Source of the DNA: Phycicoccus sp. Soil748
Lineage (GTDB): Bacteria; Actinomycetota; Actinomycetes; Actinomycetales; Dermatophilaceae
NCBI RefSeq assembly: GCF_001428025.1
Contig: NZ_LMSC01000007.1
Span: forward strand, 742,968 to 806,967
Direction of reading: 5' to 3'
DNA: 64,000 nucleotides
The position numbers and the translations under genes were made by a program. This document shows, piece after piece, positions 21,592 through 36,298 of the stretch; the stretch's first letter is position 1, and each line of letters begins with the position of its first letter. The notes beneath the pieces are model-generated. The model searched no databases and was not told the origin of the DNA. It saw only the letters and a list, made by a program, of their open reading frames with translations.

Positions 21592-22256
21592 GGCTGGGTC
21601 CCGAGGAGGGCCGGGGCCGGCGTGCGACGGCTGGTCTGGGCGGGGCTGCGCCGGATGGACCACTCGGCGATGGTGAGGTTGATGACCCAGGCCGCCCCTC
21701 GGGAGGCGTCGAGGGCCAGGGCGCCGTGGCCGAGGAGGGCTCCCCCCACCCCTTCGGTGAACGCCTGGGTCCCTGCCGCGAGGGCGATGGCATAGCTGCG
21801 CGTCATCCACGCGCGGTGCGCGGCGACGTCACCCCGCCGGATGGCGGCGACGCCGAGGGCGAGGCCGGTGACCATGGCGGGGGCGAACGCCAGCCGGAGC
21901 ACGAACAGCAGCGGTCCTGAACCCGGCTGGGGCGGGAGGAACACGGCCAGCCAGAGTGCCGAGCCCGCCACCGCGGCACCGGCGACGACCGCGACCCGTC
22001 CTGCGCTGCGGTGCCAGCGGGGGTGTCGCCGGCGGACGGCGGGCGCGAACTGGACGGCGCCGAGGAGGGCGTACACGGCTGCGCCGCAGATGTGGACGAC
22101 GACGGGCAGCGGGGAGGCGGTGAACCTCGCGTCGGCCGGGATCAGCTGTGGGCCACCGGCGAGCTCGACCAGCCTCGCCGTGCCTGCGAGGAGCGGTATG
22201 GCCGACAGTGCCACGAGTGCGACCGGGACGCGCCACCCCGGCTGCCGGCTCGTCAT
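21588..22256 (-). CDS. DUF2306-family membrane protein
   Basis: The 222-residue protein has about six membrane helices and the DUF2306 hallmarks PVVVHICGAAVYALLGAVQF, RRRHPRWHRSAGRV and the later HRAWMTRSYAIALAAG. Conserved His and Arg residues inside and next to the helices suggest a heme- or redox-linked role, which has not been shown for the family. It overlaps its neighbours by 4 bp on both sides, so it is co-translated with the upstream membrane protein and the downstream GNAT gene. Confidence 0.85.
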   Translation of the reverse strand: MTSRQPGWRVPVALVALSAIPLLAGTARLVELAGGPQLIPADARFTASPLPVVVHICGAAVYALLGAVQFAPAVRRRHPRWHRSAGRVAVVAGAAVAGSALWLAVFLPPQPGSGPLLFVLRLAFAPAMVTGLALGVAAIRRGDVAAHRAWMTRSYAIALAAGTQAFTEGVGGALLGHGALALDASRGAAWVINLTIAEWSIRRSPAQTSRRTPAPALLGTQP

Positions 22257-22945
22257 CGCACCGGCACCGCAGGCCGTGCCGGCGCCGTACGGGTGGTGCT
22301 GGCCGGGTGGGCGGCTGCACCGCGCTGGTCGCGCCACAGGGACAGGCCGAGGCCGATCAGGGCGAGGCCGGTGGGGACGGCCAGGGGACGGTTGAAGGAC
22401 TGGGGGAGGAAGGCGAGGGCGGCGGTGGCGACGTTGCCCACGGCGAGGAGCGCGGCGGCCCAGCGGTTGAGGACGCCGGCACGGAAGGTCGCGACACCGA
22501 ACAGCAGGCCGCCGAGCACGTAGAAGGCGCCGGTGACGGCGAAGACGGTGGTGAGGGCGCCGATGTCGCCGCCGGCGCTGCCCTTGAAGGCGGCCGCGAT
22601 GACGTCGCCGGTCCAGGCCGGGTCGGTGCGGGCGGTGGTGGGGAGGGCGAACGCAGCCATGAAGGTGGCGGCGAACATCATCAGGAAGCCGGCGGAGAGG
22701 GCGAGGTACCCGACGAGGGCGACGATGCCTGCCTTGGCCTGCTGGCGCAGGTACATGCCGGTGAGGCCGACCAGGACGAGGGCGGACATGACGGTCTTGG
22801 CGGTGTTGCGGACGACCCAGTCGGCGGTCGTGGCCGACTCGACGGTCATGGCGGGGTGCTTCACCTGGACGGCGATGTAGATGGCTCCAGCGGCGGCGGC
22901 GGCGATGCCGGCGCCCTGGCCGAGACGGGCGGTCGAGACGTTCAT
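22253..22945 (-). CDS. Membrane protein, six predicted helices, first gene of a LAL-promoter operon
   Basis: The 230-residue protein has about six hydrophobic helices and an Ala-rich N-terminus, with no signal peptidase site. It resembles DUF4386-type or similar small integral membrane proteins, but I cannot name a family. GAAGGA precedes the ATG at 22945. It leads the operon that continues into the DUF2306 and GNAT genes. The conserved promoter element at 22991-23037 lies directly upstream. The C-terminal 25 residues are Pro/Thr/Ala-rich. Confidence 0.75.
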   Translation of the reverse strand: MNVSTARLGQGAGIAAAAAGAIYIAVQVKHPAMTVESATTADWVVRNTAKTVMSALVLVGLTGMYLRQQAKAGIVALVGYLALSAGFLMMFAATFMAAFALPTTARTDPAWTGDVIAAAFKGSAGGDIGALTTVFAVTGAFYVLGGLLFGVATFRAGVLNRWAAALLAVGNVATAALAFLPQSFNRPLAVPTGLALIGLGLSLWRDQRGAAAHPASTTRTAPARPAVPVR

Positions 22946-22990
22946 GGCGGGTTCCTTCGGTCAGGTGGTCGGCGGTGGTGCCGACTGGTC

Positions 22991-23037
22991 CGAAGGTAGG
23001 AACAGCAGGGGTGAGGGCGAATCACCATCGGTGGTGA
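22991..23037 (-). promoter_or_regulatory. Activator-type promoter, TCACCA-N4-TGGTGA + 21 nt + CCTACCTTCG
   Basis: On the reverse strand, TCACCA-CCGA-TGGTGA (23037-23022) is followed after exactly 21 nt by CCTACCTTCG (23000-22991), a TAnnnT-type -10. The same layout and spacing occur at 28806-28760 (reverse strand) and 35162-35208 (forward strand). It lies upstream of the 22945 gene. The geometry suggests an activator bound over the -35 region; the neighbouring LuxR/LAL protein is the candidate. Confidence 0.7.
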
Positions 23038-23090
23038 CCCGGGTGGTGATCCGCGGACGGGCGGCGACCCGGATTCTGGTCCCCGGCTGG

Positions 23091-25790
23091 TCAGAGGTGG
23101 CCGAGCTCGCGGGCGCGTTCGACCGCGGCGCGGCGGGTGTTGACGTCGAGCTTGGTGAAGATGTGCTTGGTGTGCGTACGGAGCGTGTTCACCGACACGT
23201 AGAGCTCACGGGCGATGTCCGGCCCGGTGAGGGTCGTGGCGAGCAGGCGCAGGACGTCGAGCTCTCGTTCGCTCAGCGCGTCCGCGACGCCGGTGTCGGC
23301 GGTGGCCGCGCCCGGGAGGTACGTGGCGTGCCTCAGCGTGCGGGCGTGTGCGGCGGCTGCCGGGTGCCGTTCCGCCGCGGCCAGGAGCTGCTCGAGTGGC
23401 TCGCCCTCGTCGAGGAACAGCCGGACGAACCCGTGCGGGACACCCAGGTCGAGGGCCCTGGCGAGCTCGCCCAGTGCGGCTGCGTGCTGGCCGCGAGCAT
23501 CGTGCAGGAGGGAGCGCAGCAGGTGGACCTCGACCACGGTGGCCCCCCGACCGCCCGCCCCGGCGCCCGCAGCGATGGCGGTGAGGCGCGACTCGGCCTC
23601 GCCGAGACGGTCGGCCGCGGCCCCGGGGTCGGGGTCGGCGCGCTGCTCGGCGATGAGCAGTCGGACGTACGTGAGCTGGTTGAACTCCTCCAGGTAGCCG
23701 CCCGCGACCTGCTGGTCGACACCGGCCGTGGTGGCCCACTCGCGGGCGTCGTCCAGGAGTCCTCGAGCGATGTGGAGGCGGGCCCGCTGCGCGGCGAGGG
23801 GGCGGATGTCGGGGAAGAAGCCGGGGACATACCGGTCAGCGGAGTGCTGCAGCAGGCGCAGGGCTGCGTCGAGGTCTCCCTGCGCGCGGTGCAGGCGAGC
23901 GGCGGTCATGGTCAGCCGGTACCGGTTCTCCAGCAGGGACGCGGTGTCACCGAGCGCCGAGGCGGCCCTCAGGTGCTCGCCGGCGAGGTCGAGGTGCCCC
24001 TGCTCGACCAGGACGTCCGCCAGGCCGACGTGGAGGTCGCCGAGGGTGGCGAGTGCGGCACCGGGGTGGTCCTGGGCGCCTGCGAGGGCGCGCTCGAACA
24101 GGCGTCGTGCCTCGTCCGGGCGCCCGCGGGCGACCCACATGCTGCCCAGCGGGACGGTGCCCCCGAACTCGTCGGCGACGTCCCCGGCCGCCGCGAGGCT
24201 GCGCACCGCCGTGGTGAACGTCGTCACCGCCTCACCGAGGTCTCCTTCGGCCCAGGCGGCCATCCCGAGGAACCCGGCCGCGCCACCCCGGGCCATGTGG
24301 TCGTCCGGGCCGGCCAGGTCCAGCGCGCGGTGGGCGTGCCGCTTCGAGGCGTCCGTGTCGCCCCGTGCCTGGGCGGCGGAGGCGCGGAAGATGGCGATCG
24401 TCGCCGGCAGGGTGCGCAGCTCCTCGCGCGTTGCCGCTGAGGCCTGCGGAGCCGGGACGGGCGGGTGTGCCTCGTAGGCACTCTCCGCGTCCGCCAACCA
24501 GGCGTCGACGCCGTCGAGGTCGCCCTCCACGAGGCGGGTCCACGCGCGGTACGTCGCCAGCAGGGCCCGGTCCCGGACGGCGTCGTCGGGCAGCGCGGTC
24601 AACCACTGGCGCAGCAGGCCGTCCCGACGTTCGCGCCGCAGGTCCGGCAACGCCCACTCGACGAGGCCAGCCGCGTGGGCCGGCTCGGCCGCAGCGAAGG
24701 CGTGGCGCACCGCGTCCAGCGGGCGGTCGCGCGCGGCGTACCAGACGCTCGCAGCGTGGTGGAGCAGTGGGACCCGGTCGGGGTGGTCGGAGAGGAGGCG
24801 GGCCCGGAGCGCTTCGACGAACAGGTGGTGGTACCGGTACCAGGTGCGTTGGTCGTCGAGCGGGACGACGAACAGGTTGCCCCGGTCCAGCGCCTCCAGG
24901 ACGGCTCCGCCGTCGCTGCGGCCGGTCAGTGCGTCGGTGAGGGAGCCCGTGAGCTCGTGCAGGACGGAGGTGTCGAGGAGGAACCGGCGGACGTCGGCGG
25001 GCTGGTGCGCGAGCACCTCGTCGACGAGGTAGTCGAGGACGAAGCGGTTGGTCCCGGTGAAGTCGTGCACGAAGCCGGTGCTGTCCTGCACCCCTTGCAG
25101 TGAGAGGCCGGCGAGCTGGAGCCCGGCGACCCACCCCTCGGTCCGGTCGGCGAGCGCTCTGACGTCGGCCGGTGGGAGCTCCAGCCCCATGACCCGGTCG
25201 AGGAACGAGGAGGTCTCGTCCTGGGTGAACCGGAGGTCGGCGGCCCGCAGCTCGAGCAGCTCTCCTCGGGCCCGGAGGCGGGGGAGTGGCAGCATCGGGT
25301 CCGCCCGGGTGGCGATGGCGAGGGTCAGCTGCGGTGGCGCGTGCTCGAGCAGGAACGCCGTGACGGCCTGGGCCTCCGGCGACTCGACGACGTGGTAGTC
25401 GTCCAGGGCCAGGACCGTGCTGCCGGCGTGGAGGTCGAGGTCGTTGACGACGCTGGTCAGGACGGCCAGTGCGGGTGGGTCAGCGTCGTCGGCCATGAGG
25501 CGCGAGGCGTCCGGCAGGTCACGCACGGATGCCAGGGCGGCCACCACGTGCTCCAGGAGCCGGGCCGGGTCGTTGTCCGCCTCGTCGAGCGACACCCAGG
25601 CGACACGGCGGTCCGGGTCGTCCGAGTCGCGCAGCCACTGGGCGAGCAGCGTCGTCTTGCCGAACCCGGCGGGTGCGGAGACCAGCACGACCCGGGGCAG
25701 CGCGGTGGCGAGGCGGTCGGTGAGCCGACGGCGCGGGACCAGGTTCGGGCGCGCGACAGGCAGGCGCAGTTTCGTCCCGAGCACGGCCAC
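23091..25790 (-). CDS. MalT-like LuxR-family (LAL) transcriptional regulator
   Basis: The 899-residue protein has the MalT architecture. An N-terminal STAND-type ATPase carries the P-loop SAPAGFGKTT (38-47), a Walker B-like TVLALDDYH and WVSLDEADNDP. A winged-helix region and a long TPR-like helical repeat region follow. A LuxR helix-turn-helix closes the protein (about 835-899: LSERELDVLRLLATTLTGPDIA ... VNTLRTHTKHIF). Such proteins activate transcription when a small ligand drives oligomerisation. It starts with GTG and is read towards the membrane-protein operon 145 bp downstream, whose promoter carries a palindrome suited to a LuxR-type dimer. The signal is unknown. Confidence 0.92.
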   Translation of the reverse strand: MAVLGTKLRLPVARPNLVPRRRLTDRLATALPRVVLVSAPAGFGKTTLLAQWLRDSDDPDRRVAWVSLDEADNDPARLLEHVVAALASVRDLPDASRLMADDADPPALAVLTSVVNDLDLHAGSTVLALDDYHVVESPEAQAVTAFLLEHAPPQLTLAIATRADPMLPLPRLRARGELLELRAADLRFTQDETSSFLDRVMGLELPPADVRALADRTEGWVAGLQLAGLSLQGVQDSTGFVHDFTGTNRFVLDYLVDEVLAHQPADVRRFLLDTSVLHELTGSLTDALTGRSDGGAVLEALDRGNLFVVPLDDQRTWYRYHHLFVEALRARLLSDHPDRVPLLHHAASVWYAARDRPLDAVRHAFAAAEPAHAAGLVEWALPDLRRERRDGLLRQWLTALPDDAVRDRALLATYRAWTRLVEGDLDGVDAWLADAESAYEAHPPVPAPQASAATREELRTLPATIAIFRASAAQARGDTDASKRHAHRALDLAGPDDHMARGGAAGFLGMAAWAEGDLGEAVTTFTTAVRSLAAAGDVADEFGGTVPLGSMWVARGRPDEARRLFERALAGAQDHPGAALATLGDLHVGLADVLVEQGHLDLAGEHLRAASALGDTASLLENRYRLTMTAARLHRAQGDLDAALRLLQHSADRYVPGFFPDIRPLAAQRARLHIARGLLDDAREWATTAGVDQQVAGGYLEEFNQLTYVRLLIAEQRADPDPGAAADRLGEAESRLTAIAAGAGAGGRGATVVEVHLLRSLLHDARGQHAAALGELARALDLGVPHGFVRLFLDEGEPLEQLLAAAERHPAAAAHARTLRHATYLPGAATADTGVADALSERELDVLRLLATTLTGPDIARELYVSVNTLRTHTKHIFTKLDVNTRRAAVERARELGHL

Positions 25791-25872
25791 TCGTTGAGTC
25801 TAGGAGCCGGGATGCGGCACCCGGTGCGGAGACTTACCTGGTCGCGGCGAACCGTGGCGGTGGCCCGCGTCG

Positions 25873-26724
25873 CTACTTCACCTCCGAGCGCAGCACCGTG
25901 ACCACGCCGACCACCAGCGGGGCCACCAGCCACGCGGCTGAGGTCACGGCGAGCTGGGTCCACTGCTGTGCGCCGAACCCGCCGTGGAACAAGGCGCCCT
26001 GGCTGTAGGTGGGGTCGACCCACGGTTGCGCCTTCCGGAACCAGTCCTGGCCCATGGCCAGGAGCGTGAGCAGGGTCGGCGCGACGAAGGCGTAGACGAA
26101 GTAGGCGACGATGGCGCCGGCGGACGCGCGGACGAGGACACCGAGCATGAAGCCGACGGCCACCAGGAGCGTGTTCGCGAGGGCGTAGTAGGCGAGGTCG
26201 GCCGCGGTCTGGTCCCAGACGGGGTCCACGCCGTGGATGGTGGTGCCGGCGAGGTTTCCGATGGCGCCGAGCGGGAACGCGAGCACCATGGCGACGACGC
26301 CGACCAGGAGCATGGCGATGCCCTTGGCGACGATGACGCGGCCGCGGTGCGGGACGAGGGTGAACGTGGTCAGCCCGCTGCGCTGGGTCCACTCCGCGGT
26401 GACGGACAGGAGCGCGATGAGCGGCAGCAGGATGCTCATGGGCTTGCCGATGGCCAGGGTGAAGGTGCCGTAGCTGAGCTGGTCGGCCGGGGCGAAGGCG
26501 ATGACGAGGACGGTTGCCGCGACAGCAGCCAGTCCGGTGCCGACGAGCAGCCAGAACCCGGAGCGGGTGTCGAAGGACTTGCGCAGCTCGACGGCGACGA
26601 GTCGGCGCACCGGGATGCGTGTCGGTGCGCTGGCTGCGGTCGGTGTGGGGGTCGGCGTGCTGGTCGACGTGGTGGTCGACGCGGTGGTCGACGCGGCCGG
26701 TTCGGACTGGACGGTGGTGGTCAT
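25873..26724 (-). CDS. ABC-2 type transporter permease
   Basis: The 283-residue protein has a Thr/Pro/Ser-rich, low-complexity N-terminus (about 1-40), then VRRLVAVELRKSFDTRSGFWLLVG, which is typical of ABC-2 permeases, and six hydrophobic helices. It would form the membrane half of an exporter with the ATPase encoded just upstream; the two genes overlap by 4 bp (ATGA). Neighbouring DUF4386 and small-protein genes lie in the same operon. The substrate is unknown; drug or lipid export is usual for this subfamily. Confidence 0.88.
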   Translation of the reverse strand: MTTTVQSEPAASTTASTTTSTSTPTPTPTAASAPTRIPVRRLVAVELRKSFDTRSGFWLLVGTGLAAVAATVLVIAFAPADQLSYGTFTLAIGKPMSILLPLIALLSVTAEWTQRSGLTTFTLVPHRGRVIVAKGIAMLLVGVVAMVLAFPLGAIGNLAGTTIHGVDPVWDQTAADLAYYALANTLLVAVGFMLGVLVRASAGAIVAYFVYAFVAPTLLTLLAMGQDWFRKAQPWVDPTYSQGALFHGGFGAQQWTQLAVTSAAWLVAPLVVGVVTVLRSEVK

Positions 26725-27638
26725 GCCACGTCTCCTTCGCGTTGGGTCTGGGCGGTGATCTCGAGGAACATCTCCTCCAGGCCGGCGCCCTCGGCGGGGC
26801 GCAGGTCCAGGAGGGCGAGGCCGGCACGCGCGGCATGCTGGCCGACGTGTTCGGGGTCGGCATCGACGCGCAGCGTGGTGATCCCGGCGGCGCTGCGGAC
26901 CCCGTGGTCGGTGTAGCTGGTGCCGACGGCAGCCAGGGCCTCGGCCAGCGCCTTCCCGTTGCGGGTCTGCACGAGGGTGCCGGTGGTGGCGAGCAGGTCG
27001 GCCTTGGTGCCCTGGGCGGCGATGCGGCCGTGGCCGATGACGACGAGGTCGTCGGCGATGACCTCGATCTCGTGCAGCAGGTGGGAGGACAGCAGGACGG
27101 TGCCGCCGCGGTCGGCATGGCCGCGAAGGAGGTCGCGCATCCAGCGGATGCCGGCCGGGTCGAGCCCGTTGGCGGGTTCGTCGAGGATGAGGACCTGTGG
27201 GTCGCCGATGAGTGCGGTGGCGATGCCGAGGCGTTGGCGCATGCCCAGGGAGTAGTCCCGCACCCGCCTCCGGGCCTCGGTGTCGGTGAGGCTGACCCGG
27301 GCGAGCATCTCCTGGACCCGGCTCCCCGGCAGTCCCATGGTCTGGGCGGCGAGGGTGAGGACCTCGCGCCCGGTGCGTCCGGCGTGCTGGGCGGACGCGT
27401 CGAGCAGGACGCCGACCTCCCTGCCCGGGTTGGGCAGGTCGGTGAACCGGCGCCCGAGGACGGTGGCGGTGCCGGCTGTCGGCTTGGTCAGGCCGACCAT
27501 CATCCGCATGGTCGTGGACTTGCCTGCGCCGTTGGGACCGAGGAACCCGGTGACCCGTCCTGGGCGGGCGGTGAAGGTGATGTCGTCGACGGCGACGGCG
27601 GAGCCGTAGCGTTTGGTGAGTCGTTCCACGGTGAGCAT
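26721..27638 (-). CDS. ABC transporter ATP-binding protein (CcmA/DrrA-type)
   Basis: The 305-residue ATPase shows Walker A GPNGAGKST (34-42), the signature YSLGMRQRLG, Walker B VLILDEP followed by ANGLDPAG, and the H-loop SSHLLHEIE. The about 85-residue C-terminal extension is common in DrrA/CcmA-type exporter ATPases. It pairs with the ABC-2 permease encoded immediately after it. The gap to the DUF4386 gene upstream is 39 bp, so one transcript is likely. Confidence 0.92.
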   Translation of the reverse strand: MLTVERLTKRYGSAVAVDDITFTARPGRVTGFLGPNGAGKSTTMRMMVGLTKPTAGTATVLGRRFTDLPNPGREVGVLLDASAQHAGRTGREVLTLAAQTMGLPGSRVQEMLARVSLTDTEARRRVRDYSLGMRQRLGIATALIGDPQVLILDEPANGLDPAGIRWMRDLLRGHADRGGTVLLSSHLLHEIEVIADDLVVIGHGRIAAQGTKADLLATTGTLVQTRNGKALAEALAAVGTSYTDHGVRSAAGITTLRVDADPEHVGQHAARAGLALLDLRPAEGAGLEEMFLEITAQTQREGDVA

Positions 27639-27677
27639 GAGCGGGTCCTCTCGGAGGCAAGGGCGGCAGGGTGCTGC

Positions 27678-28424
27678 CTACGACTGGGGTGGGGTGGTGG
27701 TCAGGGCGTTGTACTTGAAGCCCTTGACGACGAGGTAGATGCCGAAGCCGAGCTCCCAGAAGAACTCCGGGGCAGCGGACAGGCTCTGGACCGCGCCGCC
27801 GGGCTCGATGAGGTGCAGTACGGCGGCGGAGCCAGAGGCGACGATGAGAGGCCCGCCGATGAGGCCGAGGACGGCGAGCCGGCGCGGCACCAGGCCGGTC
27901 CGGAACATCATCCAGCCGAGGATGCAGCCGTTGCCGACACCGACGACGAACTGCGGGCCGAGGTTGAAGGTCCAGTGCTGCATGGCGAGGAACGCGTCCC
28001 CGACGGTGGCCAGGCCGGCGGTGGCCTGCTCGTTCGCGGCCGCGTAGTCCTGACGCAGGGTGACGACCGTGAGGACGGCGAGGATGCCTACACCGATGAA
28101 GACGCTCTCCATGATGCGGGCGGCGATGAAGCTGAGGCCGAGGTTGGGGTAACGGTGCTTGACGACCGTGTAGAGCGCGGTCGCGCTGCCGATGTTGGCG
28201 ATGATGAGGATCGCCTCAGCGAACGCGCCCCAGAGGACGCGGGAGTCCGCTCCGGGCCCGGTGACGTAGTTCCCGTCGAACAGCGGCGGGTAGAACCAGA
28301 CCTTGGCCGAGATCGAGGTCACGTAGGTGAGGACGAACATCCAGCCGACGATGGTGGCGGAGCGGCGCCCCGGGTCCGCAACGGGCTGGTGGTCGACGGT
28401 GAAGGCCTGCTGGGTGGTGGCCAT
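27678..28424 (-). CDS. DUF4386-family membrane protein
   Basis: The 248-residue protein has about six membrane helices and DUF4386 features: an N-terminal polar leader, GWMFVLTYVTSISAKVWF, ARIMESVFIGVG, and VVGVGNGCILGWMMFRTGLVPRRLAVLG. The function of the family is unknown. The start is 1 nt after the stop of the small protein encoded upstream and has AAGGAG before the ATG. It is followed by the ABC exporter genes, suggesting a membrane-stress or export module. Confidence 0.85.
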   Translation of the reverse strand: MATTQQAFTVDHQPVADPGRRSATIVGWMFVLTYVTSISAKVWFYPPLFDGNYVTGPGADSRVLWGAFAEAILIIANIGSATALYTVVKHRYPNLGLSFIAARIMESVFIGVGILAVLTVVTLRQDYAAANEQATAGLATVGDAFLAMQHWTFNLGPQFVVGVGNGCILGWMMFRTGLVPRRLAVLGLIGGPLIVASGSAAVLHLIEPGGAVQSLSAAPEFFWELGFGIYLVVKGFKYNALTTTPPQS

Positions 28425-28425
28425 G

Positions 28426-28698
28426 TCAGTCTCCTTGTTCGGTTGCTGGGGTGGTTGAGGTGGCGGGGTCGTGCTGGTGTACGGAAAGCAGGGTGATGCC
28501 GATGTCGCCGAGCTGACGGAGCAGCCCGTGCAGGGCCGCCTGGTCGGCGACGGGGCCGTGCAGGACGGTGGTGCCGTCCTCGAGGGCGGTCAGGGTCATG
28601 CCGTCGAAGCGGGTGGCCCAGTGGGTGCCGAGCTGTCCCTGGAGGCGTATCTCGTACCAGGCTCGGTCGCGCCCGGTGGGGGCTGGCTGGTGCGTCAT
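28426..28698 (-). CDS. Small 90-residue protein, stand-alone version of the GNAT N-terminal domain
   Basis: The protein has the core YEIRLQGQLGTHWATRFDGMTLT ... LHGPVADQAALHGLLRQLGDIG, which matches residues 4-62 of the GNAT fusion at 20722-21591. This is a small alpha/beta domain found widely in actinobacteria; I know of no established function. GGGAGA precedes the ATG. It opens the DUF4386-ABC operon and lies directly behind the conserved promoter at 28760-28806. The 20-residue polar tail is probably disordered. Confidence 0.8.
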   Translation of the reverse strand: MTHQPAPTGRDRAWYEIRLQGQLGTHWATRFDGMTLTALEDGTTVLHGPVADQAALHGLLRQLGDIGITLLSVHQHDPATSTTPATEQGD

Positions 28699-28759
28699 GG
28701 CTCTCCCTGGGGACTGGCGCCTGGTGGGCGCTGGCGGCGGTGGTTCGGTTCGGTACGCC

Positions 28760-28806
28760 GCAAGCTAGGAGCGCATGTGGTGAGCAGCCATCACCGCTTC
28801 TGGTGA
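28760..28806 (-). promoter_or_regulatory. Activator-type promoter, TCACCA-N4-CGGTGA + 21 nt + CCTAGCTTGC
   Basis: On the reverse strand TCACCA-GAAG-CGGTGA (28806-28791) is followed after 21 nt by CCTAGCTTGC (28769-28760). This is the second copy of the architecture seen at 22991-23037 and 35162-35208. It drives the small-protein/DUF4386/ABC operon. One arm has a mismatch, and an extra TGGTGA half-site lies inside the spacer (28778-28783). Confidence 0.68.
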
Positions 28807-28816
28807 ACATGGAGGG

Positions 28817-28861
28817 GACCCTGATGGGTCTGGTGCCGGGCGCGGCCGCTGCCTACCGTGG
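28817..28861 (+). promoter_or_regulatory. Probable promoter of the MFS gene with a GACCC-N4-GGGTC palindrome
   Basis: GACCC-TGAT-GGGTC (28817-28830) is followed after 21 nt by CCTACCGTGG (28852-28861), 49 bp before the MFS ATG. The layout is like the three TCACCA promoters, but the arm sequence differs. It could be the site of a second regulator, possibly the LAL protein at 30245-32977. Single copy, so weak. Confidence 0.4.
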
Positions 28862-28909
28862 AACGGCGGTCCCGCCCCGGCTGGCCGCCTTCGCCCGGGG
28901 AGGCCGCAC

Positions 28910-30172
28910 ATGCAGGACCCGTCCACCGCAACGGCTCCCGGGTCCGTTCCGAGGGACCACGTCGGCTGGGGCTTCGTGGTCCTGTACACGCTGTCCTACC
29001 TGGGCACGTGCCTGCTGTTCATCGCACCGCTCGCGGTGACCCTGGCCCTGAAGGTGAACGACCTGGTGGGCAAGGATGCCGCTCCAGCCAGCCTTGCGCT
29101 GGTCGCCGGCGCCGGGTCCGCGGTGTCGCTGGTCGGCAACCCGTTGTTCGGCCGCCTGAGCGACCGGACGGCGTCGCGGTGGGGCATGCGCCGCCCGTGG
29201 ATGGTCGGCGGCCTGGTGGTGGGCACGGCCGGCATCGTGGTCGTCGCGACCGCGACGAGCGTCGCCACGGTGGTGCTCGGGTGGTGCGTCGCCCAGCTGT
29301 TCTTCAACGCCGTCCTCGCGGTCCATGTGGCCGTCCTGCCCGACCAGGTCCCCACGTCGCAGCGCGGCATGGTCTCGGGTGTCCTCGGCGTGTGCCTGCC
29401 CGTCGCCTCCATCGGTGCGACCTTCGTCGTGAAGCTCTTCTCCGGACACGAGCTGGCCATGTTCCTGCTGCCGTGCGCAGTCGGCGGCGTGCTCATCCTG
29501 GTGTTCGCCGCGAACCTGGACGACCGACGGCTCGCGGCCGAGGTCAGGCCGGCATGGACGCTGCGGGACGTCGTGGACACGTTCATCGTCAACCCGCGCC
29601 GCCACCCGGACTTCGCCTGGGCGTTCCTCAGCCGGTTCCTGCTCGTCATGGCGTACGCGTTCCTCACGACGTACCAGGTGTACTTCCTGCTGGACCGCCT
29701 GCACCGCGCCGAGGCGGACATCCCCGGCCTGGTGTTCCTCGGGACGCTTGCGCAGTCGTCCGCGGTCGTCCTGGCGTCGCTGGTCGGCGGGCGCATCTCC
29801 GACTGGGTCGGGCGGCGGAAGGTGTTCGTGTGCGCTGCCGCGCTCGTGTACGCCGTCGCGATGGTCCTGCTCAGCCTCGCCACCACGTTCGCCATGTACA
29901 TGGTGGCGGTCGCCGTCAGCGGGGTGGGGTTCGGGCTGTACTTCGCCGTCGACCTCGCGCTGGTCACCGAGGTCCTGCCCGACCCGGACAACGCCGCCAA
30001 GGACCTCGGCGTCTTCAACTACGCCGGCGCGCTCCCGTTCACGATCGCGCCCGCGTTGGCGCCGGGCATCCTCTCCCTGGGGGCGGGCAGCTACAGCGTC
30101 CTGTTCGCAGCAGCAGCGGCGTGTGCTGCTGCGGGAGCGTTCGCCGTGCTCCCGGTGAAGGCGCTGCGCTGA
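28910..30172 (+). CDS. MFS transporter
   Basis: The 420-residue protein has twelve predicted membrane helices in two halves. The loop-2 motif GRLSDRTASRWGMRRPW and the related GRISDWVGRRK in the second half are typical of major facilitator transporters. LGVFNYAGALPFTIAPALAP resembles sugar:cation or related MFS members. The ATG has GGGGAGG upstream. It is transcribed divergently from the DUF4386-ABC operon and converges on the LAL regulator gene. The substrate cannot be told. Confidence 0.88.
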   Translation: MQDPSTATAPGSVPRDHVGWGFVVLYTLSYLGTCLLFIAPLAVTLALKVNDLVGKDAAPASLALVAGAGSAVSLVGNPLFGRLSDRTASRWGMRRPWMVGGLVVGTAGIVVVATATSVATVVLGWCVAQLFFNAVLAVHVAVLPDQVPTSQRGMVSGVLGVCLPVASIGATFVVKLFSGHELAMFLLPCAVGGVLILVFAANLDDRRLAAEVRPAWTLRDVVDTFIVNPRRHPDFAWAFLSRFLLVMAYAFLTTYQVYFLLDRLHRAEADIPGLVFLGTLAQSSAVVLASLVGGRISDWVGRRKVFVCAAALVYAVAMVLLSLATTFAMYMVAVAVSGVGFGLYFAVDLALVTEVLPDPDNAAKDLGVFNYAGALPFTIAPALAPGILSLGAGSYSVLFAAAAACAAAGAFAVLPVKALR

Positions 30173-30210
30173 GGGTCCGCGGCCTCCGGCGACCATGCAC
30201 CGGTCGTCAC

Positions 30211-30238
30211 GGTCAGTCGCGGTCAGTTCGCGGTCAGC
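30211..30238. repeat. Three short tandem GGTCAG repeats in a convergent intergenic gap
   Basis: GGTCAGT, GGTCAGT and GGTCAGC recur at 30211, 30221 and 30232 within the 72-bp gap between the MFS stop and the LAL gene stop. No hairpin terminator is visible here. Probably of little significance. Confidence 0.35.
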
Positions 30239-30244
30239 TCGGCG

Positions 30245-32977
30245 TCAGATCTCGTTGCGGTTGAGCAGGTCCAGCTCCCGGGCGCGGCTGACGGCGGCGC
30301 GCCGGCCGCTCACGCCGAGCTTGGTGTACACGTTCCGCGTGTGGGTCCGGACCGTGTTGAGGGACACGACGAGGTGGCGTGCCAGCTCGGGCCCGCTGAG
30401 GTCGCTGGCCAGCAGGCGCAGGACCTCCAGCTCGCGTTCGCTGAGTGGGTCGACGAGGGGCTGGCGTGGTCGGCGGCCCTCGGCCCGTGCGGGTGGGGCT
30501 CCTGCGGGCACGCAGGCCGCGAGCAGCGTGCTCACCCATGGCGTCCGCTGCTCCTGCTCGCTGAGCAGGCCGACGAGATGGGGCACGTCGACGGCGTGGT
30601 CGGTGAACGGGCGGACGAGACCTTCCGGACTGCCCACCCTGACGGCGGACCGCAGGTGGTGCGCGGCTTCGTCGTGGTCACCGGCGGCGCGGGCGGCGCA
30701 GGCCTGGAGCACCGCGATCTCGAGGAGGCTCCCGTGACGACCGGCCGCCTCAGCCGCGGTGCGCAGCCGCGACAGGAGTGAACGCACCTCCTCGAGACCC
30801 GCTCGCCCCCTCGCGCGGTTCTCGGCCAGCAGGAGCGTGGCCAAGGTGATGTGCTCGTACTCGCGCAGGTAGGTCGGCTCGTCGTCCGGCTGCACCTGGT
30901 GGATGGCCGACCACATGCGGGCGTCGGCGAGGCGCCCTTGTGCGATGAGCAGTCGTGCACGGGTGGCGTGCACGGGACGGAAGTCCGGTTTGAAGTCGGG
31001 CACGTAGAGCCGTTCGGCCTCGTCCAGCAGGGAAAGTGCCTCGTCCACGTCACCTCGAGCCGCGCGTGTGCGGGCCATGGTGACCCGGACCTGCGAGGCG
31101 TGTTGCGGCAGGCCGGCGCCTTCGCCCAGCTGCTGGGCTCGGCGCAGGTGGGTCTCGGCCTCGTCGAGCTGACCGCGCTCGAGGGCGACGCCCGCCAGGC
31201 CGGTGTGCATGTCTGCTGTGCCTCGGGGCACCCCTGAGGTCTTCGTGGTCAGGGCCAGGGCCTCCTGGAGGGTGCGTTCGGCGTCGCTGAGGCGGCCCTG
31301 GGTGATGCGGACGTCGGCGAGCGTCGTGGTGCAGCCCAGCACGTCCGAGAGGTGACCTGCCTCGAGCAGCTCGTCGACGCACCTGGAGTAGCAGAGGTGG
31401 GTGGCTTCGATGTCGCCGGTGCGCCAGTGGGCGAGCCCGGACAGGCCCCAGGCTCCCGCGCGGGTGGGGTGGTCGTCGGGGTCTGCGAGGCTCGTGGCGA
31501 GGGCAACGTGTCGATGGGTGCCCTCGAGGTCCTCGGTGACCAGGGCATGGGCCGCCCGGTAGAGGTGGATCTTTCCGGGCAGCCGGCCCAGCTCCGTGGG
31601 GTCCTCCACCACCACGTCGGGCTCGGAGGCCGAGGTGTGGACCAGCCCGGCGATGACGTCCTCGAGGTCGTCGAGACGTCGCGGGACCGAGCTGGTCTCG
31701 GTGTTGGACATGAGCCCGGCGATGAAGCCCATGGCGAGAGCAGGCCGTGAGGTGACGACGTGCTCGGGCAGGGCGTCGACCCAGCCGACGATGGTGCCTT
31801 CTTCGCGATGTCGCAGGAGGTCGGGGATGGCCGCCTCCATGAGCGCGGCTGCGCGTGCGTGGTCTCCGGCTGCCAGGGCGTGCCTGACCGCCGGGACGGG
31901 CTGTCCCTCGAGGTGGTACCAGGAACTGGCTCGCGCGTGCAGCTCTGCCAGCGGAGCACCCGACTGGTCCGAGGCGGCGTGGGCGCGCAGGACGTCCGCG
32001 AACAGGTGGTGGTAGCGGTACCACCGGCGTCGTGCGTCGAGCGGGATGACGAACAGGTTCTGCCGTTCGAGCTGTTGGAGGGTGTCGTCACCGCCGGTGT
32101 GGCCGGTCACGGCGTCGCAGAGCGGACCGGTGAGGCGCTCGAGGACGGACGTGCGGAGCAGGAACTCGCGAACGTGCGGCGGTTGGCGGCCGAGGACCTC
32201 CTCGACGAGGTAGTCGACGATGAACCGGTCGTCGCCGGCGAAGTCGGCGAGGAAGGTGCTGGTGTCTGCTCGGCCCTGCAGGGACAGGACGGCCAGCTGG
32301 AGGGCGGCCGCCCAACCCTCGGTCCGGTTCTCGACGATGGCGGCCCCGGAGGGGTCGAGGTCCACCCCGGCGCCGTGCAGGTAGCTCGAGGTCTCCGCGT
32401 CGGTGAACCGCAGGTCGGCGGCGCGGACCTCGACGAGCTCCCCCTGGGAGCGCAGACGGCTCAGCGGCAGGCTCGGGTCGGTGCGGGTGCTGAGGATGAG
32501 GTGTGCTCGGGGCGGCAGGTGGCTGACGAGGAACGCGACCCCGTCGGCGATGGCGGGGCTGTCGACCAGGTGGTAGTCGTCCAGGACGAGGACGACGTCG
32601 TGGTCCAGCTCCGCGAGCCGGTTCAGAAGCTCGGTGAGCGCAGCCTGTGCGGTCGTTCCCGGGCCGTCGAGCAACGGCAGGACGCCGGCGCCGAGGTCGG
32701 GGTCGGCGGTGGACAGTGCCGTGACGGCGTAGGTCCAGAACGTCGACGGGTGGGCGTCGCCCGGGTCGAGGGAGACCCAGGCGACGACGCCGGGACCGGT
32801 CCGTTGGTGGATCCAGCTGGCGATGGCCGTCGTCTTGCCGAACCCTGCCTGGGCGGAGACGAGGGTCAGCCTGGTCGCGGCCCCTTGGTCGAGCAGGTCG
32901 CTGACCCGGGTGCGGACGAGGGTGCCGGCCTTGGGGCGCGGGATGAACAGCTTGGTGGTGAGCAGGGGACGTGACAT
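30245..32977 (-). CDS. Second MalT-like LuxR-family (LAL) transcriptional regulator
   Basis: The 910-residue protein has the same design as the regulator at 23091-25790. It carries the P-loop SAQAGFGKTTA near residues 41-51, AWVSLDPGDAHPSTFW, VVLVLDDYHLVDSP, a long TPR-like region and a C-terminal LuxR domain (LSERELEVLRLLASDLSGPELA ... LNTVRTHTRNVYTKLG). The ATG at 32977 is preferred because the usual LAL start PLLTTKLFIPRPK follows directly; an upstream in-frame ATG adds 16 residues. The recognition helices of the two LAL proteins differ slightly, so they may read different operators. Its ligand is unknown. Confidence 0.92.
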   Translation of the reverse strand: MSRPLLTTKLFIPRPKAGTLVRTRVSDLLDQGAATRLTLVSAQAGFGKTTAIASWIHQRTGPGVVAWVSLDPGDAHPSTFWTYAVTALSTADPDLGAGVLPLLDGPGTTAQAALTELLNRLAELDHDVVLVLDDYHLVDSPAIADGVAFLVSHLPPRAHLILSTRTDPSLPLSRLRSQGELVEVRAADLRFTDAETSSYLHGAGVDLDPSGAAIVENRTEGWAAALQLAVLSLQGRADTSTFLADFAGDDRFIVDYLVEEVLGRQPPHVREFLLRTSVLERLTGPLCDAVTGHTGGDDTLQQLERQNLFVIPLDARRRWYRYHHLFADVLRAHAASDQSGAPLAELHARASSWYHLEGQPVPAVRHALAAGDHARAAALMEAAIPDLLRHREEGTIVGWVDALPEHVVTSRPALAMGFIAGLMSNTETSSVPRRLDDLEDVIAGLVHTSASEPDVVVEDPTELGRLPGKIHLYRAAHALVTEDLEGTHRHVALATSLADPDDHPTRAGAWGLSGLAHWRTGDIEATHLCYSRCVDELLEAGHLSDVLGCTTTLADVRITQGRLSDAERTLQEALALTTKTSGVPRGTADMHTGLAGVALERGQLDEAETHLRRAQQLGEGAGLPQHASQVRVTMARTRAARGDVDEALSLLDEAERLYVPDFKPDFRPVHATRARLLIAQGRLADARMWSAIHQVQPDDEPTYLREYEHITLATLLLAENRARGRAGLEEVRSLLSRLRTAAEAAGRHGSLLEIAVLQACAARAAGDHDEAAHHLRSAVRVGSPEGLVRPFTDHAVDVPHLVGLLSEQEQRTPWVSTLLAACVPAGAPPARAEGRRPRQPLVDPLSERELEVLRLLASDLSGPELARHLVVSLNTVRTHTRNVYTKLGVSGRRAAVSRARELDLLNRNEI

Positions 32978-33056
32978 GCCTGCTCCGTTCGCGACACCCA
33001 GCCGGCTGCCTGCAGCGTAGAACACCCAGGACCGGCGCCCAAGGGCCTCGGACGCG

Positions 33057-33332
33057 CTAGCGGTGGTCGCCTCGCAGGACCAGTCGGGCGCGGGCCTTGT
33101 GCAGCTGCGGCATGAGCCCGTAGATGACGACGGGCACGGCGATCGTGGCCAGGACGAAGGTGCGCAACACGGGGTTCATCGGGCGCAGCCAGCCGCCGAG
33201 GGTGAGGTTGATGACGGTCAGCGTGGGGAACACGCAGAGCCAGATCATGAGGGCCAATTGGTGCTTCGTGGGGGGTGCCGTGCGCGGCGGTGCGGCGGTC
33301 GTGGTGGGCGCGGGCGTGCTGGGGTTGGGCAT
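33057..33332 (-). CDS. Small two-helix membrane protein
   Basis: The 91-residue protein has a Pro/Thr-rich N-terminus (1-22) and two membrane helices, LALMIWLCVFPTLTVINLTL and TFVLATIAVPVVIYGLMP, separated by GGWLRPMNP. The pattern is shared by small actinobacterial membrane proteins and the C-terminal tails of some antibiotic-biosynthesis-monooxygenase-like proteins. It follows the flavoprotein gene on the same strand after a 96-bp gap. The function is not known. Confidence 0.75.
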   Translation of the reverse strand: MPNPSTPAPTTTAAPPRTAPPTKHQLALMIWLCVFPTLTVINLTLGGWLRPMNPVLRTFVLATIAVPVVIYGLMPQLHKARARLVLRGDHR

Positions 33333-33403
33333 GGTGGATCTCCTGGGGTGGTGGGTGGGGTCGTGGGTGAGGTGGGTGCGACGCGTGCCGTGGTGGCGCG
33401 GGT

Positions 33404-33443
33404 CCGGGTCAGGGAACGAAGCCCCGGGTCAGGGAACGAAGCC
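33404..33443. repeat. Perfect 20-bp tandem duplication over the flavoprotein stop codon
   Basis: CCGGGTCAGGGAACGAAGCC occurs at 33404-33423 and again, abutting, at 33424-33443. The second copy contains the stop codon and last codons (GFVP) of the flavoprotein gene; the first copy repeats them in the downstream untranslated region. This looks like a slippage event that left the protein intact. Confidence 0.9.
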
Positions 33444-34364
33444 CCGGTTGAAGAGGTCGACGGCGGTGCGGATGTCTGCGTCGACGAGGTCGTTGTTGAT
33501 GGCGATGGCGGCGGCGGACCCTTCGCCGGCGGCGGTGATGACCTGGGCGCGCGGGTTGGCGACGTTGCCGGCGACCCACAGGCCGGGGACGGTGGTGGCG
33601 CCGTTGGCGCCGGTCGTCACCCAGCCGTGGTCGTCGAGCTCGCAGCCCACGCCGGCCAGGAGGTCGCAGTGCGGGACGAACCGCGGCGGGACGAACAGCG
33701 CGCGACGCGGGATGACACGCCCGCCGGCCAGGGCGACGCCGTGCAGTGCGTCGTCCTCGATGACGAGGCGGTCGATGTCGCCCTCCACCACACCGATCGC
33801 GCGCGCGACGAGCTGTGCCCGGTCCTGCGCGGTGAGGACGCCGTCGGGGGCGAAGAGGACGAGGTCGTGGGTCCACTGCCGCACGATGTGGGCGTACCGG
33901 ACGGTGTCGGGCCCGTGCCACAGGACACCCAGTGGCTGGTCACGGACCTCCCACCCGTGGCAGTAGGGGCAGTGCAGGACGTCCTTGGCCCAGCGGTCGG
34001 TGAGTCCGGGGACGTCGGGCAGCTCGTCGTGCAGCCCGGTGGTGACGAGGACGCGTCGTGCCCTGAGGCGCTGACCGTCGTCCAGCAGCGCCTGGAAGCC
34101 CGACCCGTTGCAGCGGACCAGCTCGCGCACGGTGCCGTCCACGATGGTGGCGCCGTACCCGGTCACCTCGCGTCGGCCGGTCGCGAGGAGGTCGGCCGGC
34201 GGCATGCCGTCGCGGGACAGGAACCCCTGCATGTGCGCGGCGGGGGCGTTGCGCGGGTTGCCGGCGTCGACGACGACGACGTCGCGGCGGGCGCGGCCGA
34301 GGACGAGGGCGGCGGAGAGACCGGCGGCCCCGCCACCGACAACCAGGACGTCATAGCTGTTCAT
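33429..34364 (-). CDS. NAD(P)/FAD-dependent oxidoreductase, thioredoxin-reductase-like
   Basis: The 311-residue flavoprotein has the FAD motif VLVVGGGAAGLSAALVLGRA (7-26), a CPYC redox pair at Cys132/Cys135 in HCPYCHGWEV and the C-terminal GLWVAGNVANPRAQVITAAGEG. It belongs to the thioredoxin-reductase-like family. A thioredoxin gene is absent nearby, and GliT/HlmI-type dithiol oxidases share this layout, so the partner is open. It is divergent from an XRE-cupin regulator with an 18-bp palindrome between them. A 20-bp tandem duplication covers its stop codon. Confidence 0.88.
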   Translation of the reverse strand: MNSYDVLVVGGGAAGLSAALVLGRARRDVVVVDAGNPRNAPAAHMQGFLSRDGMPPADLLATGRREVTGYGATIVDGTVRELVRCNGSGFQALLDDGQRLRARRVLVTTGLHDELPDVPGLTDRWAKDVLHCPYCHGWEVRDQPLGVLWHGPDTVRYAHIVRQWTHDLVLFAPDGVLTAQDRAQLVARAIGVVEGDIDRLVIEDDALHGVALAGGRVIPRRALFVPPRFVPHCDLLAGVGCELDDHGWVTTGANGATTVPGLWVAGNVANPRAQVITAAGEGSAAAIAINNDLVDADIRTAVDLFNRGFVP

Positions 34365-34450
34365 GCGGATCACTGTGGAGCTGCCGCATCGAGCCGCGCC
34401 AGCTTCGTTGCCGTTTCCGGGAACGGTGTCCGCTTTCTCCCCTGCGGGGT

Positions 34451-34468
34451 TGGCAACGGCCGTTGCCA
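34451..34468. promoter_or_regulatory. Perfect 18-bp palindrome, XRE-cupin operator candidate
   Basis: TGGCAACGGCCGTTGCCA is an exact palindrome in the 133-bp gap between the flavoprotein and XRE-cupin genes. Half-sites CGTTGCC (near 34408) and GCAACGG (near 34484) flank it. It ends 29 bp before the XRE start and probably controls both divergent genes. Confidence 0.65.
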
Positions 34469-34497
34469 GCACCGCAACGGATGGCCACGATGTGCAG

Positions 34498-35094
34498 ATG
34501 GAGGACTCGTCGGCAGCCATCGCGAAGGCCCTCGAACAGGTCGGCCCCCGGCTCAAGCAGCTGCGGGCCCAGCGTGGTGTGACGTTGACGGCACTGGCCG
34601 AGTCGACCGGCATCTCCAAGAGCACCCTGTCGCGGTTGGAGACCGGTCAGCGCAGGGCCAGCCTGGAGCTCCTGCTTCCGTTGGCGCAGGCGTATCGCGT
34701 GCCCCTTGACGACCTGGTGGGCGCGCCCGAGGTCGGTGACCCGCGGGTGCGCCTCAAGGCGAGCAGGCGAAGCGGGCGCACGGTGATACCGCTGACCCGC
34801 CAACCGGGTGGCGTGCAGGCGTGGAAGATCATCGTGCCGACCGGCAACAGCACCCCACAGCCGCGAACCCACGAAGGGTTCGAGTGGCTCTACGTCCTGT
34901 CCGGTCGCATGCGCCTCGTCCTCGGTGACGGGGACCTCGTCCTCGAGCCGGGGGAGGTGGCCGAGTTCGACACCCACGTCCCGCACTGGTTCGGCAGCGA
35001 CGGCACACGGCCGGCTGAGGTGCTGAGCCTCTTCGGTCCGCAAGGGGAGCGCATCCACGCACGCGCTCGCACGTCGGCGGGCCAGCCGTACTGA
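34498..35094 (+). CDS. XRE-family regulator with C-terminal cupin domain
   Basis: The 198-residue protein has an XRE helix-turn-helix at about 18-73 (LKQLRAQRGVTLTALAESTG, then SKSTLSRLETGQR) and a cupin_2 fold at about 105-190 with THEGFEWLYVLSGRMRLVLG and the second motif EPGEVAEFDTHVPHWFG. Proteins of this design sense small molecules through the cupin and usually repress a neighbouring gene, here the divergent flavoprotein. The ATG at 34498 is chosen because the XRE domain follows at normal distance; longer forms would run through the operator palindrome. Confidence 0.9.
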   Translation: MEDSSAAIAKALEQVGPRLKQLRAQRGVTLTALAESTGISKSTLSRLETGQRRASLELLLPLAQAYRVPLDDLVGAPEVGDPRVRLKASRRSGRTVIPLTRQPGGVQAWKIIVPTGNSTPQPRTHEGFEWLYVLSGRMRLVLGDGDLVLEPGEVAEFDTHVPHWFGSDGTRPAEVLSLFGPQGERIHARARTSAGQPY

Positions 35095-35161
35095 CCGGGC
35101 AGTCGGCACGAAGCTCCCTTGGTGCACCGCCCCGCACCGGGCGGAGGCTCGCATCCACGAT

Positions 35162-35208
35162 TCACCACATGTGGTGACGACAGGCACGGCTCTCGCTTCC
35201 TACCTTCG
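35162..35208 (+). promoter_or_regulatory. Activator-type promoter, TCACCA-N4-TGGTGA + 21 nt + CCTACCTTCG
   Basis: TCACCACATGTGGTGA (35162-35177) is a perfect 16-bp palindrome, followed after exactly 21 nt by CCTACCTTCG (35199-35208). It is the cleanest of the three copies. The predicted transcript start near 35215 leaves room for the strong ribosome site at 35241-35250 of the MDR gene. Confidence 0.72.
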
Positions 35209-35251
35209 TCCTTGTCCCCATCGACAACAGGACTCGTGTGGAGGAGGGAAC

Positions 35252-36298
35252 GTGAAGGGCACCAGAGCATCCCGCAGCACGAAGGGTGAGCGCCCGCTCC
35301 ACCATGGCGCCCTGGATCAGGAGGCGGACGGGCGCACTACTCCCGCAACACGTTCCGGGCACCGGTCGGGCCACGCTCCGGCCACCATGCGGGCCGTGGT
35401 CCAGAACGGGTACGGGCCCCCGGAGGTCCTCGTCCTCTCCGCCTCCGAACTCGCCCGCCTGCTCGACAGGAACGTGTTCGGGCGCAAGGGCCCGAGAGTC
35501 CGCACACGGGGCACCGACTTCGTGGGGACGGTCGAGGCGGTCGGTGGCAACGTGGGCGTCTGGCGTCCCGGCGACGAGGTCTTCGGGGAGGCGGACGCCA
35601 CATGGGCCGAGTACGTCGTCGTCGCTGCGGACCGGATCGCCGAGGTTCCAACCCGGTTGGCGTCCCAGGAGGCAGCGGCGCTCCCGTTGGCCGGCACGAC
35701 GGCCCTCGCGTGCCTCGAACCCGTCGGTGCCGACCCGGGTGCGAAGGTCCTCATCAACGGGGCCTCCGGTGGGGTGGGGACGCTGGCCATCCAGATCGCC
35801 CGGTCACGGGGCTGTCACGTCACGGCAGTGTGCAGCCGCCGGAACCATGACCAGGCACGCCGCCTCGGCGCCGACCAGGTCGTGGACTACCGCGTCGACG
35901 ACTTCTGCGCGACCGAAGACCGTTACGACGTGGTGCTCGACCTGGTCGGCAACCGTTCGTTGAGGGCGCTGCGAAGGCTGGTGCGCCCGTCGGGAACCCT
36001 GGTCCTGTCAGGGGGTGGCACGCCCGGCAGCGGCCGCGTTGTCGGCGCGCTCGGCCTGCTCGTCAGGGCTCAGCTGGTGGCGCGCACTCCTGGTCCACGC
36101 ATCCTCGTCCCGGTGGCGAAGCCGAACACCCAGCGCCTGCAAGAGCTGCGGTCCCTGGTGGAGGCCGGACGGCTGTCACCCGTCGTCGACCGCGTGTACG
36201 ACCTGGACCGGTCCCACGACGCCGTGGGGTACGTGGAGCGCGAGCATCCGCGCGGAAAGGTCCTCATCGCCGTGCCCGGGAAAGGGGCGCCCGCGTAG
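35252..36298 (+). CDS. MDR-family zinc-less oxidoreductase with an altered N-terminal domain
   Basis: The protein is 348 residues from the GTG at 35252, which has a very strong GAGGAGGGAA site. The family N-terminus (MRAVVQNGYGPPEVL) only begins at residue 46 (ATG 35387). The cofactor domain is normal: NGASGGVGTLAIQIARSRG and a LDLVGNRSLRALRRLVRPSG segment. Compared with the paralogue at 36349-37353, about 25 residues of the GroES-like domain (the EVLVKVHAAGLD strand and what follows) are missing, and the sequence in their place is unlike the family. It may be inactive or changed in substrate. It has its own LAL-type promoter. Confidence 0.75.
   Translation: MKGTRASRSTKGERPLHHGALDQEADGRTTPATRSGHRSGHAPATMRAVVQNGYGPPEVLVLSASELARLLDRNVFGRKGPRVRTRGTDFVGTVEAVGGNVGVWRPGDEVFGEADATWAEYVVVAADRIAEVPTRLASQEAAALPLAGTTALACLEPVGADPGAKVLINGASGGVGTLAIQIARSRGCHVTAVCSRRNHDQARRLGADQVVDYRVDDFCATEDRYDVVLDLVGNRSLRALRRLVRPSGTLVLSGGGTPGSGRVVGALGLLVRAQLVARTPGPRILVPVAKPNTQRLQELRSLVEAGRLSPVVDRVYDLDRSHDAVGYVEREHPRGKVLIAVPGKGAPA

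Follow-up and report, generated by a model that had tools for sequence, protein, structure and literature searches.

Regulators and promoter elements at the locus

The 64,000-nucleotide stretch of the Phycicoccus sp. Soil748 genome analyzed here (the window) encodes two MalT-like LuxR proteins of the LAL type (large ATP-binding regulators of the LuxR family), LAL1 and LAL2, among genes that follow three copies of a palindromic promoter element (operators 1 to 3, Table 1). The first-pass annotation of this DNA described the element as TCACCA-N4-TGGTGA, a spacer of exactly 21 nt and CCTA(C/G)CTT, and all three copies were found as described and where described. The genes behind them are an operon for a membrane protein, a DUF2306 protein and a GNAT acetyltransferase (operon 1), an operon for a small protein, a DUF4386 protein and an ATP-binding cassette (ABC) transporter (operon 2), and a gene of the medium-chain dehydrogenase/reductase (MDR) type. 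If transcription began 7 nt past the -10, the starts would fall near 22986 (operator 1), 28755 (operator 2) and 35213 (operator 3), giving leaders of about 39-57 nt with a purine-rich stretch before each start codon.

Table 1. Regulators, proposed operators and predicted target genes in the window
Feature	Position	Strand	Details
LAL1, MalT-like LuxR regulator	23091..25790	(-)	899 aa; recognition helix NTLRTHTK
LAL2, MalT-like LuxR regulator	30245..33025	(-)	926 aa; recognition helix NTVRTHTR
Operator/promoter 1	22993..23049	(-)	palindrome (box1+box2) 23037-23022, 0 mismatches; -10 TACCTT 22998-22993
Operator 1, outer boxes	box0 23049-23043; box3 23014-23006	(-)	box3 = TCACCCCTG
Operator/promoter 2	28762..28806	(-)	palindrome 28806-28791, one mismatch; -10 TAGCTT 28767-28762
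Operator 2, outer boxes	box3 28783-28775	(-)	box3 perfect; box0 position = TCCCCTC (weak)
Operator/promoter 3	35162..35206	(+)	perfect palindrome 35162-35177; -10 TACCTT 35201-35206
Operon 1, first gene: membrane protein	22253..22945	(-)	no Pfam match
Operon 1, DUF2306 membrane protein	21588..22337	(-)	
Operon 1, small domain fused to GNAT acetyltransferase	20722..21810	(-)	small domain at about residues 78-136 of the frame
Operon 2, first gene: small protein	28426..28698	(-)	90 aa; family without a name
Operon 2, DUF4386 membrane protein	27678..28424	(-)	
Operon 2, ABC transporter ATPase	26721..27638	(-)	
Operon 2, probable ABC permease	25873..26724	(-)	assigned by place and by homologues at the equivalent position; NCBIfam gave no match
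MDR (quinone-oxidoreductase-like) gene	35252..36298	(+)	behind operator 3; predicted GTG start after GGAGGAGGG
XRE-cupin protein	34363-35094		

The full pattern is far from common at random positions: the whole genome (3,974,301 bases) contains exactly three matches, all within these 12 kb, and the control none. Allowing up to two mismatches over the palindrome plus TAnnnT raised the count in this genome to 22 (3 with no mismatch, none with one, 19 with two; control 3). The 16-mer alone is not rare, as four matches with at most two mismatches were found against 2.05 expected, a number reached in 16 of 100 shuffles; the fourth palindrome match in the window, with two mismatches, is at 18122. 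The combination of palindrome, fixed spacing and -10 box is rare. Two other assignments of the element were rejected: a terminator, as copies 2 and 3 do not lie behind the end of a codirectional gene and the sole terminator-like site in 22800-35400 is elsewhere (29279), and an ordinary sigma-70 promoter, as a scan of the same interval passed none. Copy 1 has, beyond the palindrome, two extra TCACC boxes in register.

Domain and family matches identified both regulators as LALs, in agreement with the earlier assignment. Each has a C-terminal LuxR/GerE helix-turn-helix (HTH) domain (PF00196, 43.5 and 50.5 bits; cut-off 23.5), an N-terminal ATP-binding domain (STAND, with the Walker A motif AGFGKTT in both proteins), and a length of about 900 aa with a MalT-like TPR region (PF17874, 188.8 and 173.4 bits; cut-off 45). 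LAL2 matches the solved N-terminal part of MalT (E 2e-52); Pfam ATPase models stayed below their cut-offs on LAL1 and LAL2. Neither protein is MalT proper, with 375.5 and 361 bits against a cut-off of 537 for the NCBIfam equivalog NF003420. The half-site TGGTGA likewise departs from the core GGA(T/G)GA of the MalT-proper box, TGATGA occurring only in the group with Gln in the recognition helix (see below). No third LAL was found in the genome at E <= 1e-20. Upstream of LAL1, TAGACT stands 6 nt 5' of the GTG (25790-25802, minus strand) and is a possible leaderless promoter. LAL1 also starts 82 bp behind the ABC genes of operon 2, so that LAL2 might partly drive LAL1.

Occurrence of the site beside LAL genes

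Among 186 genomes of the family, a DUF4386 match was found in 38 (45 places), and 15 stretches around DUF4386 relatives were taken. All ten that contain a LAL and a small gene carry the palindrome with 0-3 mismatches and, at an unchanged offset, TAnnnT; the remaining five have no LAL, no small gene and no such site. A relaxed pattern found 19 sites (3 being the window's own) in 15 of the 186 genomes, most sites with a further TCACC at +23, and no control match in any of the rows listed. The sites stay beside LAL orthologues, as had been expected of them: 14 of the 19 lie at most 1.5 kb from a LAL, four more (L002, L003, L023, L076) within about 2.2 kb, and one (G052, L074) has neither a LAL nor any relative of the window's genes nearby. 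When boxes 1-3 (defined below) were searched for without the -10 in 394 genomes of the class, 23 matches were obtained (2 the window's own), with none in the control in the rows shown. Fifteen adjoin LAL, small, DUF4386 or operon-1 genes, with CCTAnnnT in place in 11 of these and TAnnnT in a twelfth. The remaining eight (seven places, one matched on both strands) have CCTAnnnT in no case and only a weak LuxR-HTH match nearby.

A wider sample, which is non-random, was obtained by scanning an alignment of 21 small proteins against genome contigs; from the best 80 of at least 546 matches, 79 loci were kept. They come mostly from Actinomycetota and Chloroflexota, with a few metagenome-assembled genomes labelled Bacillota, Acidobacteria or cyanobacteria. 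Every one of the 79 shows LAL similarity, and 70 have a site matching at no fewer than 19 of 25 positions. As XRE genes lie near 14 of the 79 loci (and FAD genes near 11), one might suppose that another nearby regulator, such as the XRE-cupin protein of the window, reads the palindrome and that the LALs are bystanders. Given the LAL similarity in every locus against 14 with XRE, and a LAL helix residue that covaries with an operator base (see below), we consider this supposition very improbable.

Architecture of the proposed operator

With a site model that left out the -10, 91 matches were obtained, which after removal of 12 reverse-strand echoes left 79 sites, with none in a shuffled control. 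The layout in relatives is TCACCAC at -12 (box0), TCACCACAT at 0 (box1), ATGTGGTGA at +7 (box2), TCACCACAT at +23 (box3) and TAnnnT at +39. TAnnnT stands at exactly +39 in 72 of these 79 sites, although the -10 played no part in finding them, which upholds the view that the palindrome is read together with the -10. TCAYCA stands at exactly -12 in 52 of 79. Palindrome and -10-like box had been recognized correctly, but the operator is larger than the first-pass annotation proposed, comprising as many as four boxes, of which one lies between -35 and -10. This box3 (about -28 to -20) equals boxes 1 and 2 in conservation. Loci from Chloroflexota and those labelled Bacillota often have GGTATCTT or TGTATCTT as the -10 box, variants whose occurrence at the box position fits a true -10. 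The -35 hexamers are mostly poor, with TTGACA matched at four or more of six positions in only 19 of 79 sites (spacers 16-19).

These data also bear on the origin of the three copies. Their closeness within 12 kb, and a small domain encoded in operons 1 and 2 alike, would suit a single promoter having been duplicated recently in this genome, the copies no longer sharing a regulator. However, the spacers differ among the copies, and distant genomes show the boxes and the -10 at fixed spacing beside LALs, which makes such a duplication scarcely credible.

Recognition helix and operator sequence

LALs near the sites carry a recognition helix of the form NT(V/L/M)RTHT-X. Among 118 distinct LALs, 85 have both RTHT and a site, 7 have RTHT without a site, 7 have another helix with a site, and 19 have neither (Fisher 6e-11, with kinship ignored). 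Five of the seven with another helix are accounted for: three of their loci (L162, L171, L185) hold an RTHT LAL too, one LAL (L209) has KTHT, and one (L220) has a disturbed frame. Among those with RTHT and no site, the sites of L212 and L213 lie a short way beyond the stretch (L094, L090), that of L190 is weak and displaced, L127 and L133 have weak ones, and L208 appears to lie at a contig end. Less similar LALs (L195-L197, L200-L202, L223, L224, L226-L231) have no site. As a separate observation, KTHT LALs (L069, L082, L209) lie beside palindromes TCACCTCATCGGGTGA or TCACATCATCGGGTGA, possibly a second relation between helix and base.

Residue X varies together with base 4 of the boxes. Among 102 LAL-site pairs, at least two of three scored boxes have a changed base 4 in 1 of the 91 pairs with Lys or Arg as X and in 8 of the 11 with another X (Fisher 7e-9, kinship again ignored). 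All three boxes have a changed base 4, and box0 is TCATCAC, in the six loci where the nearest LAL has Gln (L055, L117, L153, L158, L160, L171). The sole unchanged Gln pair involves a second L158 site, which lies 4.6 kb away from the Gln LAL and directly behind a fragment of another LAL. Exceptions are a Ser (L159) and a His (L062) pair with fewer than two changes and an Arg pair (L109) with two. A FastTree tree of 89 LALs was built with the HTH left out and after dropping pairs more than 3200 bp apart and L172 and L178 (no full LAL frame); on it, X changes seven times (six forced by well-supported branches) and base 4 six times. Of six independent tree pairs, 4-5 show the operator following X and none shows the opposite direction.

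When 396 genomes of the phylum were searched blind for TCATC boxes, four matches were obtained. Two of these, in one genome, lie beside LALs with X = Gln, both of a type already in the set (SLPTVRTHTQ) and so not of independent origin; the other two (G700, G788) have neither a LAL helix nor a -10 and were taken as chance. A search for the TCATC palindrome plus -10, with no box3, in 394 genomes of the class gave two matches, neither with LAL similarity, and one in the control; as about two are expected by chance, this speaks neither for nor against the Gln rule.

Proposed mode of action

The position of the sites beside LALs and the covariation of helix and base back the proposal of a LAL regulon, and the conserved multi-part site is very probably the landing site of the LAL. 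We consider it likely that the three sites of the window are operators of the two MalT-like LALs encoded between them, which would activate the adjacent promoters. On a signal, the ATP-binding LAL would oligomerise, and its LuxR-type HTHs would read up to four 9-bp boxes (TCACCACAT) oriented forward, forward, reverse, forward. It would thereby activate a promoter with a weak -35 abutting box2 and with the -10 TAnnnT at +39, the targets being operons 1 and 2 and the MDR gene. Binding, activation, the oligomer, the start sites and the assignment of LALs to sites are all what we infer from DNA and protein sequences. Oligomerisation and ATP dependence are taken over from the MalT family.

The sense of regulation was judged by analogy. 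In Actinoplanes sp. SE50/110, the MalT operator is described as an inverted repeat, TCATCC-5nt-GGATGA, lying over -35 with its 3' end 34.4 +/- 1.0 nt from mapped starts (PMC7567727). A corresponding geometry would place box2 at -35 here, and the LAL therefore most likely activates. The earlier suggestion of an activator over -35 accordingly holds as regards geometry and poor -35 hexamers, activation itself being drawn from the analogy. A LAL could also read the boxes and repress, with box3 keeping polymerase off until a signal arrives. The conservation of box3 on a par with boxes 1 and 2 would suit such a role, and a LAL repressor is known, SCO6993 of Streptomyces coelicolor, with a reported footprint at redD of -22 to -1 (PMC9628970). 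On the other hand, the low proportion of -35 hexamers resembling TTGACA suits a promoter that needs help, the geometry equals that of the Actinoplanes activator, and operator 3 is without box3, so that repression seems unlikely, if clearly less so than the other two alternatives.

Several observations weigh against activation by LALs through this operator. A box between -35 and -10 is unusual for an activator, and operator 3, before the MDR gene, has neither box0 nor box3 in good form. Its site-matrix score is 10.4, operators 1 and 2 reaching 48.9 and 49.6, on a matrix that was derived from the same 79 sites, so that the scores lean on them. Nine of the 79 loci have no site at the threshold used; in L148 and L167 a site occurs with no RTHT LAL, and in L211 an RTHT LAL with no site. 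Both Fisher tests ignore kinship, and over the independent pairs, taken from a FastTree tree, the covariation is not significant (median p 0.0625).

Relation to known LAL systems

MalT-type LAL regulons are already known as a kind of system. Like the window, the Actinoplanes region has a MalT-like LuxR gene beside its targets and two MalT-like genes in all; it differs in half-site (TCATCC against TCACCA) and gap (5 nt against 4), and in comprising 51 maltose-regulated genes, and the consulted parts of that paper make no mention of counterparts of box0 and box3 (PMC7567727). MalT of E. coli and Klebsiella, the LAL prototype, is similar in having several boxes per promoter, one at -35, and a core, GGA(T/G)GA, that resembles GGTGA here, whereas its boxes are described as direct repeats (PMC7567727, PMC6099782). 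The actinobacterial LAL activator TpdR of Rhodococcus jostii TMP1 is comparable in having repeats from -79 to -65 and from -51 to -37 and an inverted repeat near -35, but the 15-nt direct repeat proposed for it has another sequence and it serves tetramethylpyrazine degradation (PMC6099782). SCO6993 resembles the present LALs in binding a palindrome (predicted in our case); unlike them, it has 606 aa, was reported as a repressor, and no consensus site could be given for it (PMC9628970).

The regulon had been thought undescribed, and no description of it was found among the open-licence papers listed for DUF4386, DUF2306 with LuxR (none for either), LAL binding sites and the motif text; nor did the full 16-mer occur in any of the listed papers that contain a motif string. 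As far as seen, the operator and the small protein are new, as are the relation between helix and base and the operator's breadth of distribution. LAL regulators are common in actinobacteria, and we know of few with a known operator. Given a conserved operator and a helix residue that matches it, targets could be predicted in many genomes, and a testable DNA-reading rule for MalT-type HTHs suggests itself. One regulon would also unite the small-protein family with DUF4386 and DUF2306 proteins, and the role of a box between -35 and -10 becomes a question in its own right.

Predicted target genes

The first gene behind 96 sites in 94 sequences (a tally holding doubles, with the same organism in L058/L166 and in L067/L182) encodes the small domain in 48 cases, a protein labelled GNAT in 23, the operon-1 membrane protein in 14, DUF2306 in 2 and DUF4386 in 1; 8 were not recognised. 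The 23 GNAT labels arise because the window's GNAT protein carries the small domain. The small-protein family has the motif YEIR...GxLDxRW...DQAALHGLL and is found alone, fused to GNAT (20722-21810) or fused to DUF4386 (L058:9587-10618). At the thresholds used it matched no family of either Pfam or NCBIfam, and a profile search of PDB sequences gave a single match, at E 1.2, and no relative. In 25 of 79 loci the small gene has an MDR gene downstream on its own strand, and in L056 one comes after the ABC genes, which makes an operator before the MDR gene of the window sensible.

A broader scheme, which we put forward only tentatively, would be an old LAL-operator pair common to Actinomycetota and Chloroflexota, in which one oligomer would occupy four boxes (one inside the -35/-10 spacer), the residue after RTHT would set base 4 of every box, and the small protein, the commonest first target, would feed back on the LAL. 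MalY and Aes feed back on MalT.

Some target genes show peculiarities of their own. The MDR protein matches the GroES-like domain model over positions 31-103 of 104 only (26.5 bits; cut-off 23.5), and its N-terminal part looks altered. The DUF4386 protein of L056 (9007-9708) is 37% identical to that of the window, its neighbours being 79-91% identical, and the gene looks replaced within a conserved operon. The same locus has an extra palindrome with one mismatch (16017-16032) between FAD and XRE genes, its TAnnnT being shifted by one base from the usual place.

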